Shown here: positions 774 to 61,218 of the stretch, one piece after another
Numbering within the stretch: the first letter of the stretch is position 1
Layout of the letters: each line of letters opens with the position of its first letter
Origin: Anas platyrhynchos
Taxonomy: Eukaryota; Chordata; Aves; Anseriformes; Anatidae
Reading direction: 5' to 3'
NCBI RefSeq assembly: GCF_047663525.1
Contig: NC_092602.1
Coordinates: 8,305,501-8,369,500 of the forward strand
Length of the DNA: 64,000 bases
The notes under the pieces: generated by a model
Told to the model about the DNA's origin: nothing
Seen by the model: only the letters and a program-made list of their open reading frames with translations
Databases searched by the model: none
Made by a program: the position numbers and the translations under genes

Positions 774-10016
<9,243 letters not shown>

Positions 10017-31350: not shown

Positions 31351-31437
31351 ATGGGGGACCGAGAGCAGCTGCTGCAGCGAGCCCGCCTGGCCGAGCAGGC
31401 GGAGCGCTACGACGATATGGCCTCGGCCATGAAGTCG
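31351..31437 (+). CDS. YWHAH: YWHAH coding exon 1
   Basis: ATG in strong context; donor GTGAGT begins at 31438. Encodes the 29-residue first part, [19 protein letters not shown] through ASAMKS, which forms the dimer interface. Confidence 0.97.
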
Positions 31438-34400
31438 GTGAGTGGGGCTGGGCCGGGCCGGCGGGGCGCGGGGAGGGTGCGGAAGGGAGGCCGGGCTGCC
31501 CCGAGGCGGGGTCGGGGCCCGGGCGGCACCTGGGGCCGCCTCTGCCATTTTCTTCCTCCCTTATTTCCTCCGCGCTCTCGCACGGCTCCCTCGCGGCCCC
31601 CCCTTGCGGTCCCAGCCCCGGGGGTGGGGCCGTGCCCCTGCCTTCCTCCGCAGCCCTCCCGCCGAGCCGCGGGAGCACGGGGCGAGCCCTCGGGGGCGCT
31701 GCCCCACATGGGGACCCCCCTGCCGCCCCTCCTGGCTTGTGGGGACTAGGGCAGGGGGAGATGGGTCTGACCTTGGGCTGCGCCTCCCCTTCCACGGCAG
31801 TGCGGGCCACGCCAGCGGTTGGGGGCGCTGGGCGGGGGTGCCTGGGAGAGCTGCGCCCGGCAAGGGGAGCCCCTTCCTTTTCTAGACGCTTCTGCGATAA
31901 AAGGCACGAAACGCGGGCCTCGGCCGCAAACGTGAGCGCTCCGATTCGGAGATGGTCTAGTGGCTGCATCCGGGTATAAAGGCTGTTCGGGGCACGGTTT
32001 CATAAGCTTTAACGTTGCCTTCTTGCCTCTCCTTTGTAGGGTAACGTTCTCAGTGCATTCCTTACACAGTTGAATACTGACATGTGTTTAAACAGTAAGC
32101 TGCAGTTGCAACTCAGCTCCTTTCAAAGCCAAGCAATGAAAATGAATTGTACTGACCTGTTTGTACTGGTACACAATAAAATCGGAGAATGAACAAACTT
32201 ACTATGTCTAGTTCCTTCTTTTTTGGAAAAAAAAAAAAAAAAACACAACATAAAAAGACACCACAAAGCATGAATCTAAATGTTAAGGGTAATGATAATG
32301 CTGGTAAATATTTTATAGTATCTTTGCTGTATCTGTTTGCAACAGGTATAGTCTTGTTAATCTCTTTTTTGTGAACACCAGAAGGCCTCAAGAGGACTCA
32401 GGTTTCCCTTGAGAGTAGTGCTGTTTAAAGACATGGGAGGGTTTTGGTTTGAAAGAGCAGCTTCAAATCAAGTTCACGTTAAATGAATTTGTATTTGTGA
32501 CAAAAATGGTCTTCTTCAGCAACTGGGATGTATGTCACATTCCTTAAATGAGGGCAGGAAAAAGGGATTTATTTTGTTGCCCTTGTATTTTTTTAATGTA
32601 CAAGCAACCTTCCCTATTGTGGCATAATAAATATTAGGACCAATCTAGTACATCTAATACTGAGATACTCAAGATGTATTGCTGCTTCAGATCTAGACAT
32701 TAAAATGAACTGTATTTAATGATATTACTAGAATTTCTGGTATGTATTATGTTTTAACAGCTTCATTCATCTCAAGAATGTTTTCCATTGCTATTTCTAA
32801 AGGAGGCAACCAAAAAATCCCTAAAATCCACTGCTGCTCTAGAAGACACAATTTCTAGGTGTAGACAGTGGCTTTTAATTTTTCCAAGCATTGCTGAACT
32901 ATAGTGTATATATGGCTCTCTGCACATGTGAAGCAAAAAGTATGTTTGACACGCTTCCAGAAATGCATAAATAAAAATGACTAGTGTGTACGTCTAGTTG
33001 TCTTCTTAAACTGACTTAACTACTGTTCAATTTTCATTCGTTTTATGCCATAGTATTCTCTAATATTATTTTTGCTCTCTAAGAAATTGTATAATGATGA
33101 GCTTCTGTAATTGGGAGCTTGTTAGCGCTTTGTAGGTGAGCTGAGCCTTGAGCATTTATGATGCATGACATTATAGACACTTAAATACAAAAATCAAACT
33201 ATTAAGAAGGTGAGTTTCCTCCTATGAAGCTGTTCATGTAATGTGGTGTGCCCCTAATGTAGCATCTATTGGTTGCTGGGCTTTTACAGGCGTTAACTCT
33301 TAAGATGGTAGTTTCCAGAACTCTCTTTTAAGAATGAGTTGATTTTATAGGTGTGAGCTTAAACACCTATTAAATACTATGTGGGTTCTGTTCCCACACA
33401 GCTAATGTTTCCTTCAATTTTAATGACTGTAAATAAGTATTTGGAGAACTTTTCTCTAAATAGAAGAATATTCAAATAATCTTGCAATCCAGTGATGTTA
33501 AGCTTCTTTCAACAAGAAATCAGTGTTCTAAATTGGATAGGCATTCTCAGTTCAATACTTTAGTTTGATTTAAAAAGATCTCTGCATGTAACGGATGATT
33601 TTTTTTTTTTTAAGTGGCTGTGTGAAAATAGCATGTTTCCAGTATAATAGAAATGCAAGTGCTTAGTTTCAGTTCCAGGTATTTATCACCACAATTCTAC
33701 AGTCCACAATATAGCCAGCAGCCTTATAGTTGCTCCTAAAACATAAAGTGACAAAAACTGTTTTAACAAAAGCATATATGCCCTGTCTTTGAGACTGCCG
33801 CTGAAGAAGTATGATAAAACTGTCATTTCAGCTGTTGCTATAAAGCTGAAGAAACACTTGTTGTTAAGTCCTATCAGTTCACTATTCCATAGAAAAGCTA
33901 GATGACGTAACAGTTGTAGCTTAAGTAAGGAAATGACTGTTCAATAATATATTTTTGTTGCTACTGAATTTTCGTTTCCTTAGAAGGGTTCCAGTACTTC
34001 TACTTACAATGTGTAGAGAGCGAAGTGTTCACTTAAATAGCTGTTACAAATTAATGGGTTTAATTAACTTTTTTTATTTTGCCAGAATTGTTTTAATAGC
34101 AAATAAATGCATGTGTAAATGTGCCTCTACTAAATGGCATTCGTCCAAGGGCAGTGGCAGTCCCATTGCATTAAATAATGCTTTAGGATTCCAACTATTT
34201 GAAATAACCCTACACGGTAGGTAAAAATTTGCTTCTAAACATACTGGGGAGAAAAAAAAAAAACAACAAACTTTTGGCATAAAGGATATTGCTTGTAGGA
34301 ACAAAGACGCTGAGAATACTGCACTGAATCCTTATGGGTGTAGATCATTCCAGAAATGGAGTTGAAATGTTGATTGTAAATACTAAATAGTTGAACAGTT

Positions 34401-37400: not shown

Positions 37401-40260
37401 TTAGAAACTGTAAAATACCATTCTGGCGTCTTCACTACACAGAAGATAACTGTCTCTATTTTAAAGCTTAAGAAGTCACTTTAAGGAGGTAGAAGAAATA
37501 AATAAGGGTTAGGGTGACTGTATATCTCAGTTCACAAATAGATGAACACTAGCATTTAGGAGGGTCCCTAATCTGAAGCGGAGGGAAGGGGATTGAATAC
37601 GAAGGTTGTAGCACCTAGTTGAGAGTAAGAAACAGGAGATAAATGGAGGACGAGGTGAAAAACTGTAACGATGATGCATTGGATAAAGAATTAGGGTAGC
37701 TGTGGGTAGATTTCATTCCTGTCACATGGAGTCTGGGTTACAAGGGCAAGAGGTGGCACATTTCTTACTATTTTCCCACCAAGACTCAAGTTAGTTTTGT
37801 GCATCCATAGTTACCTTTGTCCTGTATAGTTTTTCATACTCAACATACAGGTAACATAACACAGTAGTATGTTATCTTCAAAAATACAAGAAAAAATGCT
37901 TGATATGTTAATGAAGACGGGTGGGGGAAAGAAGCTTTATTGTTAAATGGTGTTTGAAGTTTTAACAAAGCATCATTGATTCCTTTAAAATAAGCCACTC
38001 TGAGCGAAATTGAAGTTCTTTCAGGTGCAGGCCTTTCAAGTGAAGTTCTCCAGTAGTGTAGGAAAGACCAAGTGATCAAAGACAAAGAAGCAAGTGATAA
38101 TCTGTGGTGGTTTTTATTCTACTTCTGTAAAAGGAAATGCTCTTCTAATAGACTGTAGGGAATAAAAATCTCTTGGCTGAGCCCTGACATCTAGAAGGAG
38201 TTGATGTCTTTACTAGAGAGGATATTACAGGTAGATCATAGAGATTGTGCCTAGGATAATGTTGAGTGGAAGCTATGGAGAAGCTTGTGACAACTACATT
38301 AGAGTTGATTCCTGTGCATTTTACCCTTTGTAGACAGTCTGTCATTACATTAGACCAGGCAGAGCAGTGTCTTGTGGGAATTGAGGCCCCTTGAGCTGTT
38401 GGGAAGAGGTATTTTGGAGACAACTAAATTTTCCGTAAACTCTTATGGAAACAGATAATTCATAGAATCATAGAAACATAGAGTGGCTTGGCTTGGAAGG
38501 GACCTTAAAGATCATCTAATTCCATCCCCCCACTGCAATGGGCAGGGACACCTTCCACTGGAAGGTGTATAATTCATATAAACTATTTCTTTAGACTAGG
38601 AAGGATGTGTTCACTGGATGGTACACTGGCTACACCAAAGGTCTAAAAATAGTGTAGATATCTGTGACAGTTGTTTGCAGTGTACAAGTATTTGCAGATG
38701 TTCTGATGTGTCATGTGGTGTAAATATGCACATTTTTTGAAAGTAGTTAATGATTTTAGCAGTGTGAGCAGCATCGGGTTTACTTTCACATGGAAGTATG
38801 TATCCTTAGAATTCTAGTGACTTCTTTCAATGCAGTTAATGCAGTATTCTTAAAAGTAGTTGAGCTGTGTTTTTAATCTAATTCCTCAGCTTAATTTCAT
38901 GTTTCTAAACGTGCAAAAATTGAACAACTCAAAGTGACTGAGTTTGAAAGGCATTTTTCCCTAATTATCAGAGTGAAAAAGGCCTAAATGCAGTATTAAA
39001 TTTCTTCCATGTTTATCCCAGAAATTTGTCAGCACCCATCAGTCTACAGATATCCAGATAACTTTTGCATTACGTTGTATAATTGCTCATTAAGTGAAAG
39101 ATAGTATGAAACACTAATTCCATTTGTACTATGCAGAGCTTAATCATACTGACTTCAGCGCTTCCATCTCTGCTGTAGAATGAAAGCAAGCAGCAGGGGA
39201 AAAGAAATGCAAGGACTGCATCAGTTTCCAGTGTCTGTGCTGTGTTCCAGATGCGTAAAACTGGTATTCTAGGTACATTTAAATTCATTGTTAAATACGT
39301 AGTCTACATAATTATAGCAAAGACTTCCTAAGAACTGAGCCCTCCTGCGAATGCTTCTCCGTTACTCCAGTCTGACTCACCCTCATTCAGTGAATATGCT
39401 TTGTAATGGGTTTTAAATACCAGTTCTATTACAGCAGAACTGTGGGGGTATTCATTATGTCTTGACTGCAAAACCAGTTTTAAATTTTCAGTGTTAAAAA
39501 CTGTCTCCTGTCTAGAAGGAATTTTGAATCTTGTACCATGTGATGCAAGCTCCCATGCTCTTTAGACAAGCCCTTTAAATTTGATCTTTGTCTGTATTTT
39601 CAGGTAACTGAGCTGAATGAGCCTCTCTCAAATGAGGACAGAAACCTGCTGTCTGTAGCCTACAAGAATGTAGTTGGAGCTAGACGATCTTCCTGGCGTG
39701 TGATCAGCAGCATAGAGCAGAAGACTATGGCGGATGGGAATGAGAAGAAGCTGGAGAAGGTCAAAGCCTATAGGGAGAAGATAGAAAAGGAGCTTGAGAC
39801 GGTCTGCAATGATGTTTTGGCTCTCCTCGATAAGTACTTGATCAAGAACTGCAATGACTTCCAGTATGAGAGCAAGGTCTTTTATCTGAAAATGAAAGGA
39901 GATTATTACCGCTACTTGGCAGAAGTTGCTGCTGGAGAGAAGAAGAACAGTGTCGTGGAAGCCTCAGAAGCTGCCTATAAAGAGGCCTTTGAAATCAGCA
40001 AAGAGCACATGCAGCCCACTCACCCAATTAGGCTTGGGCTGGCACTCAATTTCTCGGTGTTCTACTATGAAATCCAGAATGCCCCTGAGCAAGCCTGCCT
40101 TTTAGCCAAACAAGCCTTTGATGATGCCATAGCAGAGCTGGACACACTAAACGAGGATTCCTACAAGGACTCCACTCTCATCATGCAGTTACTTCGAGAT
40201 AACCTCACTCTGTGGACGAGTGACCAGCAAGATGAAGAAGCAGGAGAGGGCAATAATTAA
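31351..40260 (+). CDS. YWHAH: YWHAH, 14-3-3 protein eta (complete)
   Basis: Dimeric cytosolic adaptor that binds phosphoserine/phosphothreonine motifs on many clients. Two coding exons, 31351-31437 and 39604-40260, join in phase 0 (AAG TCG | GTA ACT) to give 247 residues, one Asn longer at the C-terminus than the 246-residue human protein as I remember it. The 14-3-3 signature 1 ([11 protein letters not shown]) is at residues 42-52 and signature 2 at 216-235. The phosphopeptide-binding residues K50, R57, R132 and Y133 are present. Start [19 protein letters not shown] and tail [11 protein letters not shown] identify the eta isoform rather than gamma or zeta. The ATG (GCGGCCATGG) has a strong Kozak context. 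The 8.2-kb intron position, after codon 29, is typical. Promoter is CpG-island type. Confidence 0.98.
31438..39603 (+). other. YWHAH: YWHAH intron 1
   Basis: Intron of 8166 bases with a consensus donor (GTGAGT) and acceptor (CTGTATTTTCAG). The first 500 bases belong to the CpG island. The rest is AT-rich, with one CR1 fragment near 38.5 kb, an A-run near 32227-32244, and no coding exon that I can see. Confidence 0.93.
38461..38568 (-). mobile_element. CR1 LINE 3' fragment
   Basis: ATAGAATCATAGAA, then GGCTTGGAAGGGACCTTAAAG, split here as motif, and ATCATCTAATTCCATCCCCCC are the reverse complement of the bird CR1 3' end. The fragment is strongly 5'-truncated and is flanked by an exact 10-bp direct repeat, ATAATTCATA, at 38455-38464 and 38569-38578. 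Confidence 0.9.
39604..40260 (+). CDS. YWHAH: YWHAH coding exon 2 with stop
   Basis: Acceptor CTGTATTTTCAG ends at 39603. Encodes residues 30-247, including both family signatures and the ligand-binding groove; TAA at 40258-40260. Confidence 0.98.
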
Positions 40261-49331: not shown

Positions 49332-52092
49332 CTTTTAGGATAAAAGTGAGTTGAGAGCTGAAGTTCTCCAATTAAGTTGAAGAAAACTGTCTGCAAGTTT
49401 TCCTTGCTGTCACTAAATTACTTTGTAGTTTTCCCCTTTCTTCCATTACCGGTAAGCTTTATTGTGTGATATTAATAGGAGCTGAATTTAACTTATTTTT
49501 AATGAATGCGGAACACCCAAATGTGGAATTGTAAACCATAGCATTTGCTACGTTAATTAAGGCATTAGACATTTGTACATACTAATATTTTTGACTTTAG
49601 GGTACACAGTTTAAAATGGCTAGTAGATTTCTTTTGTTTAACGTGAGTGTAACTTGTGACTCATTTTTTCCCTTTCCCACTGTTAAGTCAACTCTCAACA
49701 TTTTTTGTTTGACTCACTGTTAGTATGTATCAGTGTTCATTGAGGGGCTTTATCAGAACTCAAAGGGCATTACTAATTCACCTTTTATCGCTGTTCCTTA
49801 AAAATATCTGTATTTTTGAAATAAGACTGCAGCTTGAAACACTGCTTCATTAATGCAGATAATTTCAGTCTCAGAGCTAAGCCTGTTTAAAAAAAAAAAA
49901 AAAAAAAGGAAAAAAAGACACACACACACGGTCCTATTTGTTTTCTTCTCTAGCAGTCTTTTTTTCTTCATTTTGTGCTGTCCGTGACAAGATTTCCTTC
50001 CTTCCCCACTCTCCTTGAAGAAACACAGTTTGGTAACTACATGAAGATGTAACTGGTGGGTAGTACCACTCAACTGTATTCTAATGCCCAACGTAGCCTG
50101 AATTTTGCTTTACATGCACACAGCTAGCTGTTCTCTGAGTATCTTTTAGTTTAAGGAGAAGGAATAAGAGGACCGAAGAATAACTTTGTGGAATTGATGC
50201 TGGCCTTGTTTTATGTGTTTTTCTTGATGTTTGTGCTTCTGTTCATCGGTGGCGTGAGATGTTTTTCTCCCTTTCCTCTCCTCCTCCCCTTTTCCTGTTT
50301 CTCTCCCTCAGTCACCACATCCTTCCTAGTTCTGCTTATCACTGAGATTTTTCATCTCTCTCTCTCAGTTCTCACCCTCCTGCCTGTGATTAAACACCTG
50401 GAACGTTTCCAGCCTGATGACTGCAGAGTTTTGCAATGAAATTCCTTTGGGATTTGCTGCAGTAAGGCTCTGCTTCTTGAAATGCATTGCTCTGAAGGAG
50501 TCAGACTTTCTGTATTCTAATGCTCATCTTTGTATAGATTTTGAAAGTACTGGGCATATTAAATGCATCATTGCTACCTGAATAGCAGAGGCCTCATAGT
50601 AGGAAACTGTTTCATTATTACAAACTATATAAAATCCTTCCCCCAGAAAACTTTCTTCCTTTTGGCTGAAATATGTGGACAACTGAACTGATCAACATTC
50701 TGATACCATTGACTTTTGAGATTCTGCTTTTGGAGGGTTAGCCTAAAGCAAGAGTTGCATCTGCTGCTATGCACAAGTTAGGTAGGTTTCTAAACCCCAG
50801 TATGTGAAATTTGGTTCTGAATAGTATTACTGAGGTTTGTCTTAGCTTCAGCTGTATTAAAAAAAAAAAAAAATCACTTTTGGTGGAAAATGTCATAGCT
50901 GCAACATTACATTGCTTAATTGCTATGTTACAATGACAGTTGCTACATCTGATTCAACATTAACTCCTGAAATGAATGGTGGAGGACAATTATCTGTGGA
51001 AATTAAACTAAAGATTTTGCGTAAGAGAAAATAAGTGAATATGTCTTGCTAGATAGGAAAATACTCTATGATTGACTTTGAAGTTTCTTCAATACCATTG
51101 TCCTAAGTTTTTAGACTGCAAACTGTCCTCAAAAGGCTCTCTGTTTTGTTAATTTATCTTTCACTCAAGGCTGTGTACACTGATAAAACATTATGTATCA
51201 ATAATGTCAGTTTCCTTGCCAAAAAGCCTTTTTCCCAGAGCTTTTGAGCCATTTAACATAAAGCTGCCATTAGCATTGCCCACCAGCTGAGGCTGTCTAG
51301 AACGCAAAGACAATTGAATCAGAAAGGACATTTGTACTCGGTAAATTGAAACATTTGAAAATACTGGAAGATCTAGAAATTAAAGAGATGGAACCAATGC
51401 TCTTTACTTCCTTCTTGGTGAAGGAGCTTTCAATCAATGTTAAGCATTTTCATTTGTAAGTTATTCAAGTTATGTTGTCTTATATTTAAGTGCAAAAGAA
51501 ACCAACAAAATAACAGCAAAAAGAAAGAAGAGGGCAAATTAATTTTCTTTTGAAGCCCTGTACAGGCAGGACTGTATCATCAAGGTATTAGCATTGCTGT
51601 GAATGAGCACCTGAGTCACTGAGAGAATGGAAATGTATCATAAAAAGTACCTTGTATCAGAAAACGTAGCTAGAATATTCTATATGATTTGAGCTAGTGT
51701 CTCTCTGGAGGCTTCTGGTAGTTTCTTATAGACTGTTAAAAGTCTCACCATCTAAATCAGCATTTAAGCCATGCCTGCTGCACCTAAACTTCACGTGACC
51801 ATGCACGCTCTCATTCAGCAAGTCTAACCTAAATAATGTAATATCAAATTAGATAATGCATTTAATTTTTTTCCAATTAAATAGTAGTTCAGATTCCTAA
51901 CATTTTTCTTATTCCCTCTGTACTTCTTTCGGTCTCCTGTCTTCATTCTCTGTTCCTGTCCCTTGCCTTTCCTCTTCTCACAAACTAATTTTTTACTGCC
52001 TTTATCTTTTATTCCCTGCTCTTTCCTGAGTCCTGGTGTCCTCCCTGACCTCTCTTCCCTCTTTAAATACTTTCTTCCTGGCCTCATGGAGC

Positions 52093-52183
52093 ATCGCCAT
52101 GGTGACTGCATGATGTCACTGCACTGGGAACTGTTGCCCAGGAAACTGCGTGATGTCATTGCGGAGACAGTTGCCATGGTTAC
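52093..52183. promoter_or_regulatory. Tandem RFX X-box / CRE-like array
   Basis: Three X-box motifs, ATCGCCATGGTGAC (52093-52106), GTTGCCCAGGAAAC (52133-52146) and GTTGCCATGGTTAC (52170-52183). The first two are each followed after exactly 4 bases (TGCA, TGCG) by TGATGTCA, at 52111-52118 and 52151-52158; the third is followed by TGAG but has no CRE-like octamer. The first two units are exactly 40 bases apart and the third 37. X-boxes bind RFX proteins and TGATGTCA resembles a CREB/ATF site (established). That this is an enhancer or promoter is inference. Confidence 0.6.
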
Positions 52184-55100
52184 TGAGGTACCGGGGAGAA
52201 AAGGGGTTGTTATTTCACAGATGGCAGGAAATGCTCCCATTAATGGCAACAAAGAAGATGCTTTTATTTATGTATTTCTGTTCCAGGGAGGGCTGCCTGT
52301 GATTCAAAGTCCCCGTTCCTTTCCTGATACAGTGTGCTCAGTTTGGGTTTTCATTTGGTCTGTGTGATTCTGCTCACCTATTTCTATCGTTAAATGTTAC
52401 TGTGAACATCAAGACACAATAAAAAAGGGGAAAAACCTACCTTGTCCAGTGCTTCTGTGTAGTACGGATTCCCACCTGTCGTTGCTCTTTGCTTTTTCCT
52501 ATTCGTTTTCTTTTGTTTCTGTGATGAGCAGCCCAGCCCAGCTGTTACCCCGGCAGATGTCAGAGGTGCACTAGCAGTGAACGTTACATCTCTGAGCTTG
52601 CTTCATCTGCCCCAGGCTCTGTTTCTCTGAAGGGCAAGCTATAATTTGTTTTCCACTTCTTTCATGCCTTTACCAACTTTTGTTTCATCACTGTTAAAAT
52701 ATGCCTGCTTTTTGTTTTTGTTTTTAGTAATTGCAAGAGTTCCAGGAAATGCCCAATGCGAAAGGTGAAGCAGGAGTTAAATAAAAAGTAGGAGCAGCTA
52801 TTAGAGATATGCAGGTATGCAATAATAAGTTTGTTAACCCTCATTGTGTGCACAGAACAATGTGTAAGCATGTGTGTGCAGCTAATGTTTCGTGTAAGGA
52901 TGTGGGAATGTAAGTAGCGGTAACCATGTGTCTTAAGTCTGTGCATGTGATGTGTAGATCAGTAGCTCTGACAGAGTGTTGTGTATGTGTATAAACATAC
53001 ATATAATTGCTCTATGTGCAGATGCTCTAGAGTTCACTAGAAGCTGTGCTTACAGGCTTGCCATTAGTTAACCAGGAAACGGGCCATTCTCTGTTGCTGC
53101 TGTGTTTTGAGATCCTCAAGTTGAAAATTCTAACTTGGGTTAACTTCCAATTACTGCAGAGCTGAAAACAAGAATTCTATCAAAGATACAGAGTGCTAGT
53201 AGCAGGCCAGGTATTGGGATATTGGGACTGAGAAATTTTGGAGTTCTGAAATCTTGACTGAAAGCCAGGTCTCCTGAAATGGTGGGAGGAGACTGGAATT
53301 GAGGTAGCAGCTAAATTTTGGCAACACTGGATGAGGAATGGTGGAGAGAGAATATAACTTCATTTGGGTGGAGGGGTGGGAGGGGGGGGGGGGGGGGGGG
53401 GAAGATATAGAGAGCAGAATTTCCAGACTTAGTTATGGGGGAAAACAAGGGAATGCCAATTGGGATTTTTTGCTGTTTGTGGTGAAGCAGTAAAGATATT
53501 TCATTAGAATTTAATTTTGTATTCCTTTCCTCATACTTTGAAAGTACTATTTGTATAAATGTATATTTGCTCAGTATACTGCAAAAAGTAATCTCAACCT
53601 CTTTGCCAAAGTAACTAAAAGGAAATCATGTTTCACATCTCTATCTAGGTAGGGCTGCAGGAAACAAGTTATAAGAGATCAGACGGCAATGAGATAAAAC
53701 AGATAACGGAGGTGGAAAGCAGCAGTCAGTCAGTGTGGAGAGGTTCATAACAGTCAGGTGAGAGACATAATCACTAGCCAGTGTTTGACCTGTGTGTAAG
53801 TTCTTAAATTATAACTTGATAAGTGTTTAGTTAATCAACATGCAATGGTGGTATTGGGATATCAGGTCTCTTTGTCCATTTTGAGCTAAGGGACTTGCAT
53901 CACTGTGAAATGTGGGTCAGTAATCATGCAACTTTCCTGGACTCTAATGGACTAGAACGATTTTATGGTTGCTAGAATTAGGGTACTGTTGAATCTGATA
54001 TTGAAGGGATATTTAATTTCTGCCATTAATGGCCACCAGTGTTACTTGTCCTGTTAAATGAGCTTCAGAACGAACCCTGAACTTGAGTTTGTTTCATTTC
54101 AGCACTATACCAGACAATGTGAGATTATTATATTTAAATACATTTTAAACATTTATATTTGGGTCATATTTTTTGTTAAAGTATGAGAAAAATCAAGAAG
54201 TTGGAATCTTTTTAACTGTCAGAGAGGTCATGAAAAGGTTTGTGAAGCTTATATCTCTCCAAATTTTGCCTGGAATCGGCAGTCAGATTCATGATTCATT
54301 ATCCATCTGTCTGTCTCTCATCTTTCAACGTGAAATTTTTGTAAATATTTAAATAGTAATTGTATGCTGTGATACAGCAATACTAGAGACCACATACTGA
54401 TAAATAAATATAGACTTATTTTCTACCACTGTCAGCCAGCTGGGATATCTGTATGTTAAAATCCTGTGTGTAGCAGGGGGAGGCACCATGCCGTGCTGCA
54501 GGAATGACAATCCCATGAGCAATGTGAGCTTAGTTTTTGCTGGCCAATGCTTCCATCTACTGGAGATCTCTGTTCTCACAGTATTCATTCTGTGCTGTAT
54601 TCTGAGATCTAGTCTTGATAGTTAAAATCCTCCAAATATTATCATGTATAAATTACAGTATATAATAAAAATAGTTCCTCTTGTGATATTAAGTGGCTAG
54701 CACAAAATGCTTTTACATGCTCTTTACATTTGAAAGATGTGTAATTGAATCAAAACTGTGTTTTTTTCCTGAAATGCAGCATTTAAGACAGTAGTAATAT
54801 AAATGAAGGTACAAAATTTAAAACTATCTTGCTGGTGGGTAGTTGTGTGATTTGATAATAAATACAGAATTTTCAGGAGGAGACTTCAGAGCCTGTAGGA
54901 TTGCTCCTTTATGCTTTATGAGCAAACAGGATTGGCGTTGATGTCCATTGAGACATGAAGTATTTTAGTATCAAGACTAGAAAAGTAGACTCAGTATTAC
55001 TTACGCTGCTACAGTACATCAGAGTTTGCCTGTGCTTCATAAGAGTCACTGTAGGAGGCAATCAACACTGCTGTAGTCAGTACTGATTTGCCTTTCAGGG

Positions 55101-55526
55101 GAATTAAAGGCTTTTTTTTTTCTTCTGGTGGCTGAAAAGAAACACCACAAATAGTGGATTTTGGTTTTCTTGTTAGCATCTCCCTGATTCCTTAAGCACC
55201 TTGAAGTGTTTGATTAGAAAATTTAGGAATAAACTAGTTTCTGGAGGAACTTACCTGTAACCCAGCTAAAAATACTTCTCAGCCCACCTTTCTCTGTGTG
55301 GTTCTTCTCATTCTTCCCTGCAAATCCACTGATTTGTTGAAAGACCAGCATGGAATTATTATCCCTGTGATATTTATTATTCTTATCAGGCTTTGTACAA
55401 ATAAGAACACTGTAAAATGTAAAGAGAATAAATACTTTTGGTTCTGTGTTACTGTTATTTATGACAGTGTTGTTAAAAGTAATAATATCAGAACACCTTT
55501 GGACTTGATACAGTACTGTTACAAAT
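52184..55526. other. Gene-free region downstream of YWHAH, part 2
   Basis: No exon recognised. Contains AATAAA near 52419 and a G-rich tract with a 20-base G run ending at 53401. Otherwise AT-rich sequence without visible structure. Confidence 0.6.
53366..53401 (+). repeat. G-rich tract with G20 run
   Basis: Three short G tracts (GGG, GGGG, GGG) followed by 20 consecutive G. It is able in principle to form a G-quadruplex, and its length is prone to assembly error. Confidence 0.9.
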
Positions 55527-55766
55527 CACAGAATCACTGAGTGGCTTGGGGCCATAATAGGATCTAGTTCCAACCAGAACCATGGGCATGACGCCTCCCA
55601 ACACACCAGGTGTCCCAATGGCCTTGGGCACTTCAGGGATGGGGCAGCCAGTTTCTCTGGGCAGCCTGCTGCAGAGCCTCACCACCCTAACAGTAAAGAA
55701 TTTTCTCTTAATATCTAATCTAAATCTGCCCTTTTAGTTACCTCTTGTGCTATCATTACACTAAAT
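55527..55766 (-). mobile_element. CR1 LINE 3' fragment
   Basis: ATCACAGAATCACTGAGTGG, then GATCTAGTTCCAACC, CTGGGCAGCCTGCTGCAGAG and TTCTCTTAATATCTAATCTA follow the reverse complement of the CR1 3' region in order. 5'-truncated, about 240 bases. Confidence 0.88.
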
Positions 55767-57784
55767 GTAACATTTTTATATGTAAATTATACACAAAATT
55801 TACAAGTTTATGTGCACTAGATAAATTTTATAGGATTTTATATAAACTATCAATCTGTGTATACAGCATAATCACATATGATGATAACATACAAAGTTAC
55901 TAATATAAATAAATGGTCATTAGCACAGTGCCTCTATAAAAAGGATGTAATGTCAGTGCACCTTGCCCCACCTACATGCAATCTGTGCAGTTCTGTGCCC
56001 TTTGGGATCATTATTACAGTGAGATAAGTATCTTCATTTGTTCACGTGAAATCTTGATGTGCTCCCCATGTTGGCCTTCAGTAATTAACTTTGTAGACTA
56101 CATCAGCTTTTGAATTTAACATTACCTTTAAGCTTTTTGAAATACCTGTGCTTGATAAGGTGTTACATTGTTCACGTGTTTAACTTCATTATGCAGGAGC
56201 CAGGAGGCAGGGAGCTGGAAAGATGTGCCAAAGCACAGGAATGGATTTAAGGGATTAAAATATATGCTGTGTTCTATAACATTTTTTTAAAATTACTAGA
56301 ATTCTAGGAATTTTAGTCTTGAGATTTCCATCAGTTGTTCTTCCACTGTTAAGGAAAAATAGTTCAGGATGTATTCCACTCCATGTGTTATTTGTAAACT
56401 GATCCTGTGTGGGGATGTTTCTGTGCTTTTGTAAAATTAAACAGCTCCAGATTTCTAGGTAGCATATATTCTGACCTAATTGTTGAGAATGCGGGGGAAA
56501 TGAGTCTGTAAATGGTAGGAACACTATAGCCTGTGTCTGAAGTGGATAATTCATGTGGACAAAGAACTACTGTTCACCTTAGCAGCCATCAGAAGCTGAG
56601 TAGAAATAACTGAGCTGAATATGCAGTTAAAGAGATTATGTGGAGCCCAAAGGCAGAAACTTAAATGTTTTTAGTTTTCCTTGTGTTGTTAGTTCATTTG
56701 TAGGAGCAGCACTTTCAGAAGCTGCCATTCGTAGTCATTTAAAATAAGAAGCATTTTCTTGGAGGTGAAAAACCAAACTGAAACAAAAAACCCCACCTGA
56801 CAGTCCGTCATATACCTGCAATATACATGCACCTAGAGGTGGAAGGAATGCTTTTCTCTGCGTAATCATGCGGGAGCACATTCCACTGCTGATGTACGTG
56901 CTTTCGTCCTAGGGGTGTTCTGACTATCAATATCTTTATGGCTTACATGCTATCTAGAGCTTTAGCAGATTGTGACTTGTGCAGGCAAGTCTGTGCATTG
57001 TGAACTGAGCTTTAATTAAAAAAAAATCTTTTTACTACCTTTGAACTCAGATGACTCACTGTCAGTGTCAATGGATATATGTGCTCTTGCTGTTTCAGTT
57101 TTCTTAGGAAGTTATTAAGAATTTAGTAGTCAGTCGGATTGTAACTTATAATGTTCCTTGAGAATTTACTTACAGTGGCCTCAGTTACCTCATATGTGAT
57201 GTGGCTATAACTTTAGACAGTGACGTATCTTGGAGAAATTGTATAATGCTTGCAGTCCTAGGAGGTGAAGAAAACAAAGAGGTTGCGATGTATGGATGGA
57301 TGTGATTCAAATAATAAATCAGTATGTGTTTTTTGTTTTGTTTTGTTTTTGAACCAGCTTCCTAGCAGGTAAAGAACATGAATATAGCCTTGTTGCACCA
57401 CAGTTGTCTGTGACTAAATCATAAAAGCTCATAAGAAATTTTTCACTGGATAAATTAACAGGCAGAAGATGTTTCAAGGTAGTTTTTCCCTGAAGAACTT
57501 ATTTGTGCAATCATAAGCACAGTAAGATGTTCCTTAAATTTGAAGATAATATCGGTTATTTCAGAGGAAGAAAAGTGTGTATGTACAGGAAGAAAGAAGG
57601 GTAGTTATTGATCTGAGCAGTTGAGTCATATGGAAATCAATTTACTTTTCAGTTCCTGGAAACTGAGCATTGCAGCTGGTTATTTATTGTTGTGTTGTAT
57701 GCTTTCTACCTGTGTCACTGATGGAACAGAGAGCGCTTCTGCTCTGAAGCAGAAAGAGCCTACAAATTGGCTGCTCTGTTAAAC
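55767..57784. other. Gene-free region downstream of YWHAH, part 3
   Basis: AT-rich sequence without recognisable genes or strong repeats. Confidence 0.6.
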
Positions 57785-61204: not shown

Positions 61205-61218
61205 GTTGCCAGGGAAAC
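61205..61218. promoter_or_regulatory. RFX X-box motif
   Basis: GTTGCCAGGGAAAC matches the X-box palindrome with both half sites intact. Isolated motif; function unknown. Confidence 0.4.

Follow-up and report, generated by a model that had tools for sequence, protein, structure and literature searches.

In the promoters of major histocompatibility complex class II (MHC-II) genes, the RFX5 complex, CREB and NF-Y act on the S-X-X2-Y module, in which an RFX-type site is followed by a CRE-like site (CRE, cyclic AMP response element). Published accounts treat the order, orientation and spacing of these modules as fixed (PMC2278383, PMC7866136), and distal X-box-like elements with enhancer activity have also been reported for MHC class II (PMC7866136). 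Here, we analysed a 64,000-nucleotide stretch of DNA from Anas platyrhynchos, hereafter called the window (C16:8305501-8369500 of a genome of 1.26 Gb in 42 contigs), which holds three X-box-like sites and two copies of the CRE/ATF-like octamer TGATGTCA at positions 52093-52183. We give about an even chance to the reading that this is a small distal cis-regulatory cluster for RFX and ATF/CREB factors, partly duplicated. The window resembles the MHC-II module in having an RFX-type site with a CRE-like site a few bases on and on the same strand, a likeness at the level of motifs only, and differs from it in that its X-boxes are palindromic and the pair of sites is repeated. The distance between the dyads of the X-box and of the octamer is 15 bp in the window, while in HLA-DRA it is about 13.

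The E1A-responsive element of the PCNA promoter reportedly involves RFX1/EF-C and ATF-1 (a 1995 study); it is a promoter element, unlike the proposed distal cluster of the window, and the likeness concerns the names of the factors. The ATF/CREB consensus has flanks of the R-TGATGTCA-Y type, which both window copies of the octamer carry. The E-selectin promoter element, TGACATCATTG, depends on ATF2, which no longer binds when the element carries the mutation employed in that study (PMC4973847); binding of ATF/CREB-family proteins to TGATGTCA is therefore plausible. A CAP-SELEX (consecutive affinity-purification systematic evolution of ligands by exponential enrichment) survey describes RFX3-GLI composites, and 'CREB' is absent from its main text (PMC12119339). 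In the accessible portions of two further papers, neither 'CREB' nor 'ATF' occurs in one on the regulatory syntax of human development (PMC13216069), and neither 'spacing' nor 'tandem' in a survey of the human RFX genes (PMC5838959). No report of an RFX/TGATGTCA composite was found in listings of the open-licence literature, a scope that leaves out most subscription journals and makes this weak evidence of novelty.

Layout and rarity of the cluster

Motifs were scored against the generally known CRE and RFX consensus strings, not against curated matrices, and the reference for the X-box was the 14-base palindrome GTTGCCATGGCAAC. All sites of the cluster lie on the + strand. The first X-box-like site, ATCGCCATGGTGAC (52093-52106), has a CpG inside, with four mismatches to the palindrome and none to RTNRCCNNRGYRAC. 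The second, GTTGCCCAGGAAAC (52133-52146), has three mismatches, and the third, GTTGCCATGGTTAC (52170-52183), is the best match with two. The octamers, at 52111-52118 and 52151-52158, begin four bases past X-boxes 1 and 2, with dyads 15 bp apart in both units, and no octamer follows X-box 3. The spacers after X-boxes 1, 2 and 3 are TGCA, TGCG and TGAG. An earlier note, made from the sequence alone, had given these X-box and octamer positions and all three spacers exactly.

The note had described the cluster as a regular 40-bp array, and this description holds in part. The octamers of units 1 and 2 are indeed 40 bases apart, but unit 3 begins 37 bases after unit 2 and lacks the octamer, so that only two units keep the 40-base distance. 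The identity between units 1 and 2 is 25/40, made up of 8/14 in the X-box, 3/4 in the spacer, 8/8 in the octamer and 6/14 in the tail; it falls to 18/40 for units 2 and 3 and 19/40 for units 1 and 3, where it lies mostly within the X-box. Neither Tandem Repeats Finder (TRF), at a minimum score of 40, nor an ungapped repeat finder over 51500-53000 reported the site cluster. 'Tandem array' is thus a generous label for one near-repeat plus a third X-box. Outside the X-box and the octamer, units 1 and 2 share 9 of 18 bases (binomial P near 0.03 if the match rate is taken to be 0.27), and a partial tandem duplication behind these two units is plausible. Overall, the repetition is weak.

The cluster is unique in the genome. 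The 161-bp stretch that holds it has one match, itself, in a DNA search that passes over very common words. A pattern of the unit's first 31 bases, with up to three mismatches allowed, has two matches in 1.26 Gb, both of them the window units, and its control, the pattern read backwards (as in all pattern searches below), has none. A dispersed satellite, which the earlier note had offered as a test of its proposal, or a transposon-borne repeat is ruled out, since the unit pattern and the 161-bp stretch match only this locus. Exact TGATGTCA pairs 40 bp apart occur at four places in the genome. Two of the other three have no X-box-like site (up to four mismatches) within about 300 bases, and one of these is part of a repeat in which TGATGTCA/TGACGTCA abound; at the third, the only X-box-like site has four mismatches and overlaps the octamer. 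Exact scans for a 19-nt core found 22 bacterial records among prokaryote genomes and five viral contigs in IMG/VR, which we read as chance matches.

As a control for the clustering of the sites, two sets of 150 first-order Markov sequences, each 64 kb long, were used, one matching the window in composition and the other matching 52.0-52.6 kb. X-box-like was defined as up to four mismatches; as the definitions were picked after the array had been seen, the following numbers are guides and not P values. Three X-box-like sites within 91 bp occur once in the window, compared with 0.013 times per sequence with the window composition and 0 with the local one. An X-box-like site followed after four bases by an exact TGATGTCA, on either strand, occurs twice, compared with 0.0067 and 0 per sequence. 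The total of X-box-like sites shows no excess (26, with 25.6 and 27.8 expected), so that the clustering alone stands out, and the exact octamer is mildly above expectation (4, with 1.8 and 2.2 expected). These controls, with their post hoc definitions, bear out the claim that the motifs are clustered non-randomly. Two further X-box-like sites of the window, GTTGCCAGGGAAAC at 61205 and GTTGCTATGGTTAC at 7053, have no adjoining exact TGATGTCA or TGACATCA.

Spacing of X-box half-sites and octamers across the genome

A strict X-box, GTTGCCNNGGNAAC, followed within 30 bases by TGAYRTCA has 11 matches in the genome (control 0), which include window unit 2; two of the others carry TGATGTCA at a spacing of 5. 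A composite, an X-box half with TGATGTCA after it, was then searched in its reverse-complement form, TGACATCA-N(0-20)-GTTRCCNNGG, and gave 81 matches (control 6). Of these, 41 were set aside as they come from one satellite block, C3:119.69-119.84 Mb, with spacings of 15-16; the block repeats TGACATCA-N15/16-GTTGCCATGG or a close variant of it. Among the 40 non-satellite matches the spacing is 6 in 11, 5 in four and 4 in two. The other 20 spacing bins have a mean of 1.45, which gives the peak at 6 a Poisson P(>=11) of 4e-7, or 8e-6 allowing for 21 bins. The second half of the X-box, which is outside the searched pattern, is X-box-like (up to 4/14 mismatches) in 10/11 matches at spacing 6, in 1/4 at spacing 5 and in 2/2 at spacing 4.

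The opposite orientation of the octamer gave 28 matches (control 8), two of which are the window pairs. Only one of the 28 is at spacing 6, and there is no clear peak, the largest bins holding four matches each, at 12 and 16. When TGACGTCA takes the place of TGATGTCA, there are 22 matches (control 13), none at spacing 6; eight are at spacing 3, seven of them inside two arrays. A different half-site, GTTGCTATGG, has five matches (control 0), of which four are at spacing 6 (binomial P 2.5e-5); the opposite orientation has no match (control 0). The X-boxes of the window are matched by neither of the two half-site patterns. The half-site and TGATGTCA, separated by six bases in one orientation, look like a specific composite in this genome, and the non-random spacing of such pairs suggests that the X-box half-site and TGATGTCA are used together.

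The flanks of 17 composites (spacings 4-6, from the 40 non-satellite matches) do not support a shared transposon origin. BLASTN alignments of at least 25 bases among these flanks are mostly within the core of about 28 bp, and those that go beyond the core are between pairs, over 25-44 bases (for example L037/L050, L044/L049 and L043/L051). By eye, three of the 11 spacing-6 composites (L041, L045 and L047) have TAATCAC about 32 bases upstream of the X-box, a feature on which BLASTN is silent. The window units also gave alignments, always over the motif pair: unit 2 matched locus L014 at 86% across 29 bases, and L052 matched both units at 81%.

Other arrays and genomic setting

Two larger tandem arrays of X-boxes and CREs are found in the genome. 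The minisatellite-like array on contig C17 (C17:445696-446318, or L081:296-918, where L081 is C17:445401-446500) has a 24-bp period, and within L081 there are 24 X-box-like sites as well as 11 CRE-like octamers. As in the window cluster, X-boxes alternate with CRE octamers in tandem; it differs in its period, in a spacing of 3, in that 9/11 octamers are the full TGACGTCA, and in a GC content of 0.66. After this array there is, by eye, an exon-like sequence with a splice donor. The array on contig C30 (C30:6571401-6571715, or L082:301-615, where L082 is C30:6571101-6572000) has about 9.8 copies of a 33-bp unit, and the 900 bases of L082 hold six X-box-like sites and 14 CRE-like octamers. It is like the window cluster in having CRE octamers beside GTTGCCATGG, several times, in tandem, and unlike it in its 33-bp period, its spacing of 3 and the degenerate right half of its X-box. 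A GC-rich stretch at L018 (C9:9999868) also combines two X-box-like sites with two TGATGTCA copies at a distance of 38 bp from each other. The arrays on C17 and C30 and at L018 are separate and not copies, because their periods and spacings differ and the window array matches only itself. A census of CRE-CCNNGG-CRE gave 680 matches (control 12), which we do not use as a count, as at least 35 of about 100 listed, which reach no further than C17, belong to one dispersed repeat. A stricter census gave 13 (control 0), split between the C17 array with 10 and the C30 array with three; it is blind to the window array, where the middle X-box has CCCAGG as its core.

Genes were placed by TBLASTN with human protein sequences. 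DEPDC5 has seven matches between 771 and 10013 on the + strand, and YWHAH follows on the same strand, its first exon at 31351-31443 and its second at 39604-40254. The nearest PDB sequence to the product of exon 2 is 14-3-3 eta, and this exon also matches Pfam PF00244. The stop of the YWHAH coding sequence is near 40254, 11.8 kb upstream of the cluster, in agreement with the gene-free setting about 11 kb after YWHAH given by the earlier note. SLC5A1 is downstream of the window, and a search for its exons inside the window gave no match better than E 1.8. Its residues 23-45 are encoded by an exon at L002:9793-9861, and the likely start codon is an in-frame ATG, L002:9775 (window coordinate 73775), which puts the cluster in the YWHAH-SLC5A1 interval, 21.6 kb before the SLC5A1 start. 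Upstream of this ATG (L002:9650-9775, window coordinate 73650-73775) there is a TATA-like stretch and GTTTATCATTAACC, which we take to resemble an HNF1 site. Around the cluster, a pyrimidine-rich tract precedes it on the + strand (51900-52080, 80% C+T), as had been noted before, and a lone RFX half-site, GGCAAC, lies downstream on the same strand (52245-52250, a string match). Rfam gave no match at gathering scores.

Competing explanations and meaning

If the cluster is regulatory, RFX-family dimers would occupy the three X-boxes, and a bZIP dimer of the ATF/CREB family would sit on each TGATGTCA, with 4 bp separating the octamer from X-box 1 or X-box 2 and 15 bp separating the dyads. A partial tandem duplication probably produced one unit from the other; the spacers would then have drifted while the octamer stayed identical. 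The target of the cluster would be one of its neighbours, YWHAH or SLC5A1. The identity of the octamer (8/8), set against 6/14 in the 14-base tails of units 1 and 2, supports this reading. Several observations count against it: X-box 1 is weak by the palindrome GTTGCCATGGCAAC (4/14 mismatches), TGATGTCA is without the central CpG of a full CRE, the window units have a spacing of 4 and so are off the GGYAAC-N6-TGATGTCA peak (2/40 vs 11/40), and the CpG observed/expected ratio is only 0.28-0.36 in three 400-base blocks from 51801, 52001 and 52201. It is also quite possible, if not probable, that the cluster is a decayed, non-functional minisatellite, in which a short GC-richer unit was duplicated once or twice and drifted, the motifs being incidental to the unit. 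The 25/40 identity, which runs past the motifs, is consistent with this, as are the arrays with clean periods at C17:445.7-446.3 kb (24 bp) and C30:6571.4-6571.7 kb (33 bp), which indicate that such units expand in this genome; moreover, TGATGTCA would by reasoning be the deamination product of a methylated TGACGTCA. However, units 1 and 2 share just 9/18 outside the X-box and octamer compared with 8/8 in the octamer, and unit 3 has the best X-box yet no octamer.

The same low CpG ratio argues against a proximal promoter of an unannotated transcript, for example of testis or ciliated cells, which we consider unlikely. In mouse spermatogenesis, RFX2 sites are reported to lie very near the start sites of most target genes (PMC4498915), which favours a promoter, but TATA, CCAAT, Sp1 and ETS consensus strings were not found in 51900-52400, and splice-donor matches of at least 8/9 are restricted to 52910 and 53758 on the + strand (52100-56000), with none on the - strand (50000-52300). 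A protein-coding exon is highly improbable and was rejected: the + frame is open over 51888-52367, and the open frames reach 159 (+) and 147 (-) amino acids, but neither strand's frame has a Pfam match at E up to 0.1, the + frame takes in the pyrimidine tract, and the 40-base repeat shifts the frame and is not a protein repeat, because 40 cannot be divided by 3. We give hardly any credence to an MHC class II-like S-X-X2-Y module that would recruit CIITA. The order of pyrimidines, RFX-type site and CRE-like site fits it, but no Y (CCAAT) or S box consensus string was found in 51900-52400, against an arrangement described as fixed (PMC2278383, PMC7866136), and the module is rejected at this level. 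Of the resemblance to MHC-II X1-X2 that the earlier note had drawn, the motif pair stands, while the missing boxes and the longer dyad distance speak against the rest.

The proposed distal RFX and ATF/CREB cluster may belong to something wider, although we regard the following as doubtful. The RFX half-site and TGATGTCA, with a gap of 6 in one orientation, could form a regulatory word apart from the MHC-II module, with RFX/CRE sites repeatedly in tandem arrays (24, 33 and 40 bp) and the window array as a small, off-spacing member that would regulate SLC5A1 or YWHAH. Taken alone, the window cluster is a modest candidate enhancer; it pointed to an RFX/TGATGTCA composite, specific in spacing and orientation, across one vertebrate genome. 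If RFX and bZIP proteins do bind this composite together, the partnership of RFX and CREB established for MHC class II would reach beyond immunity.
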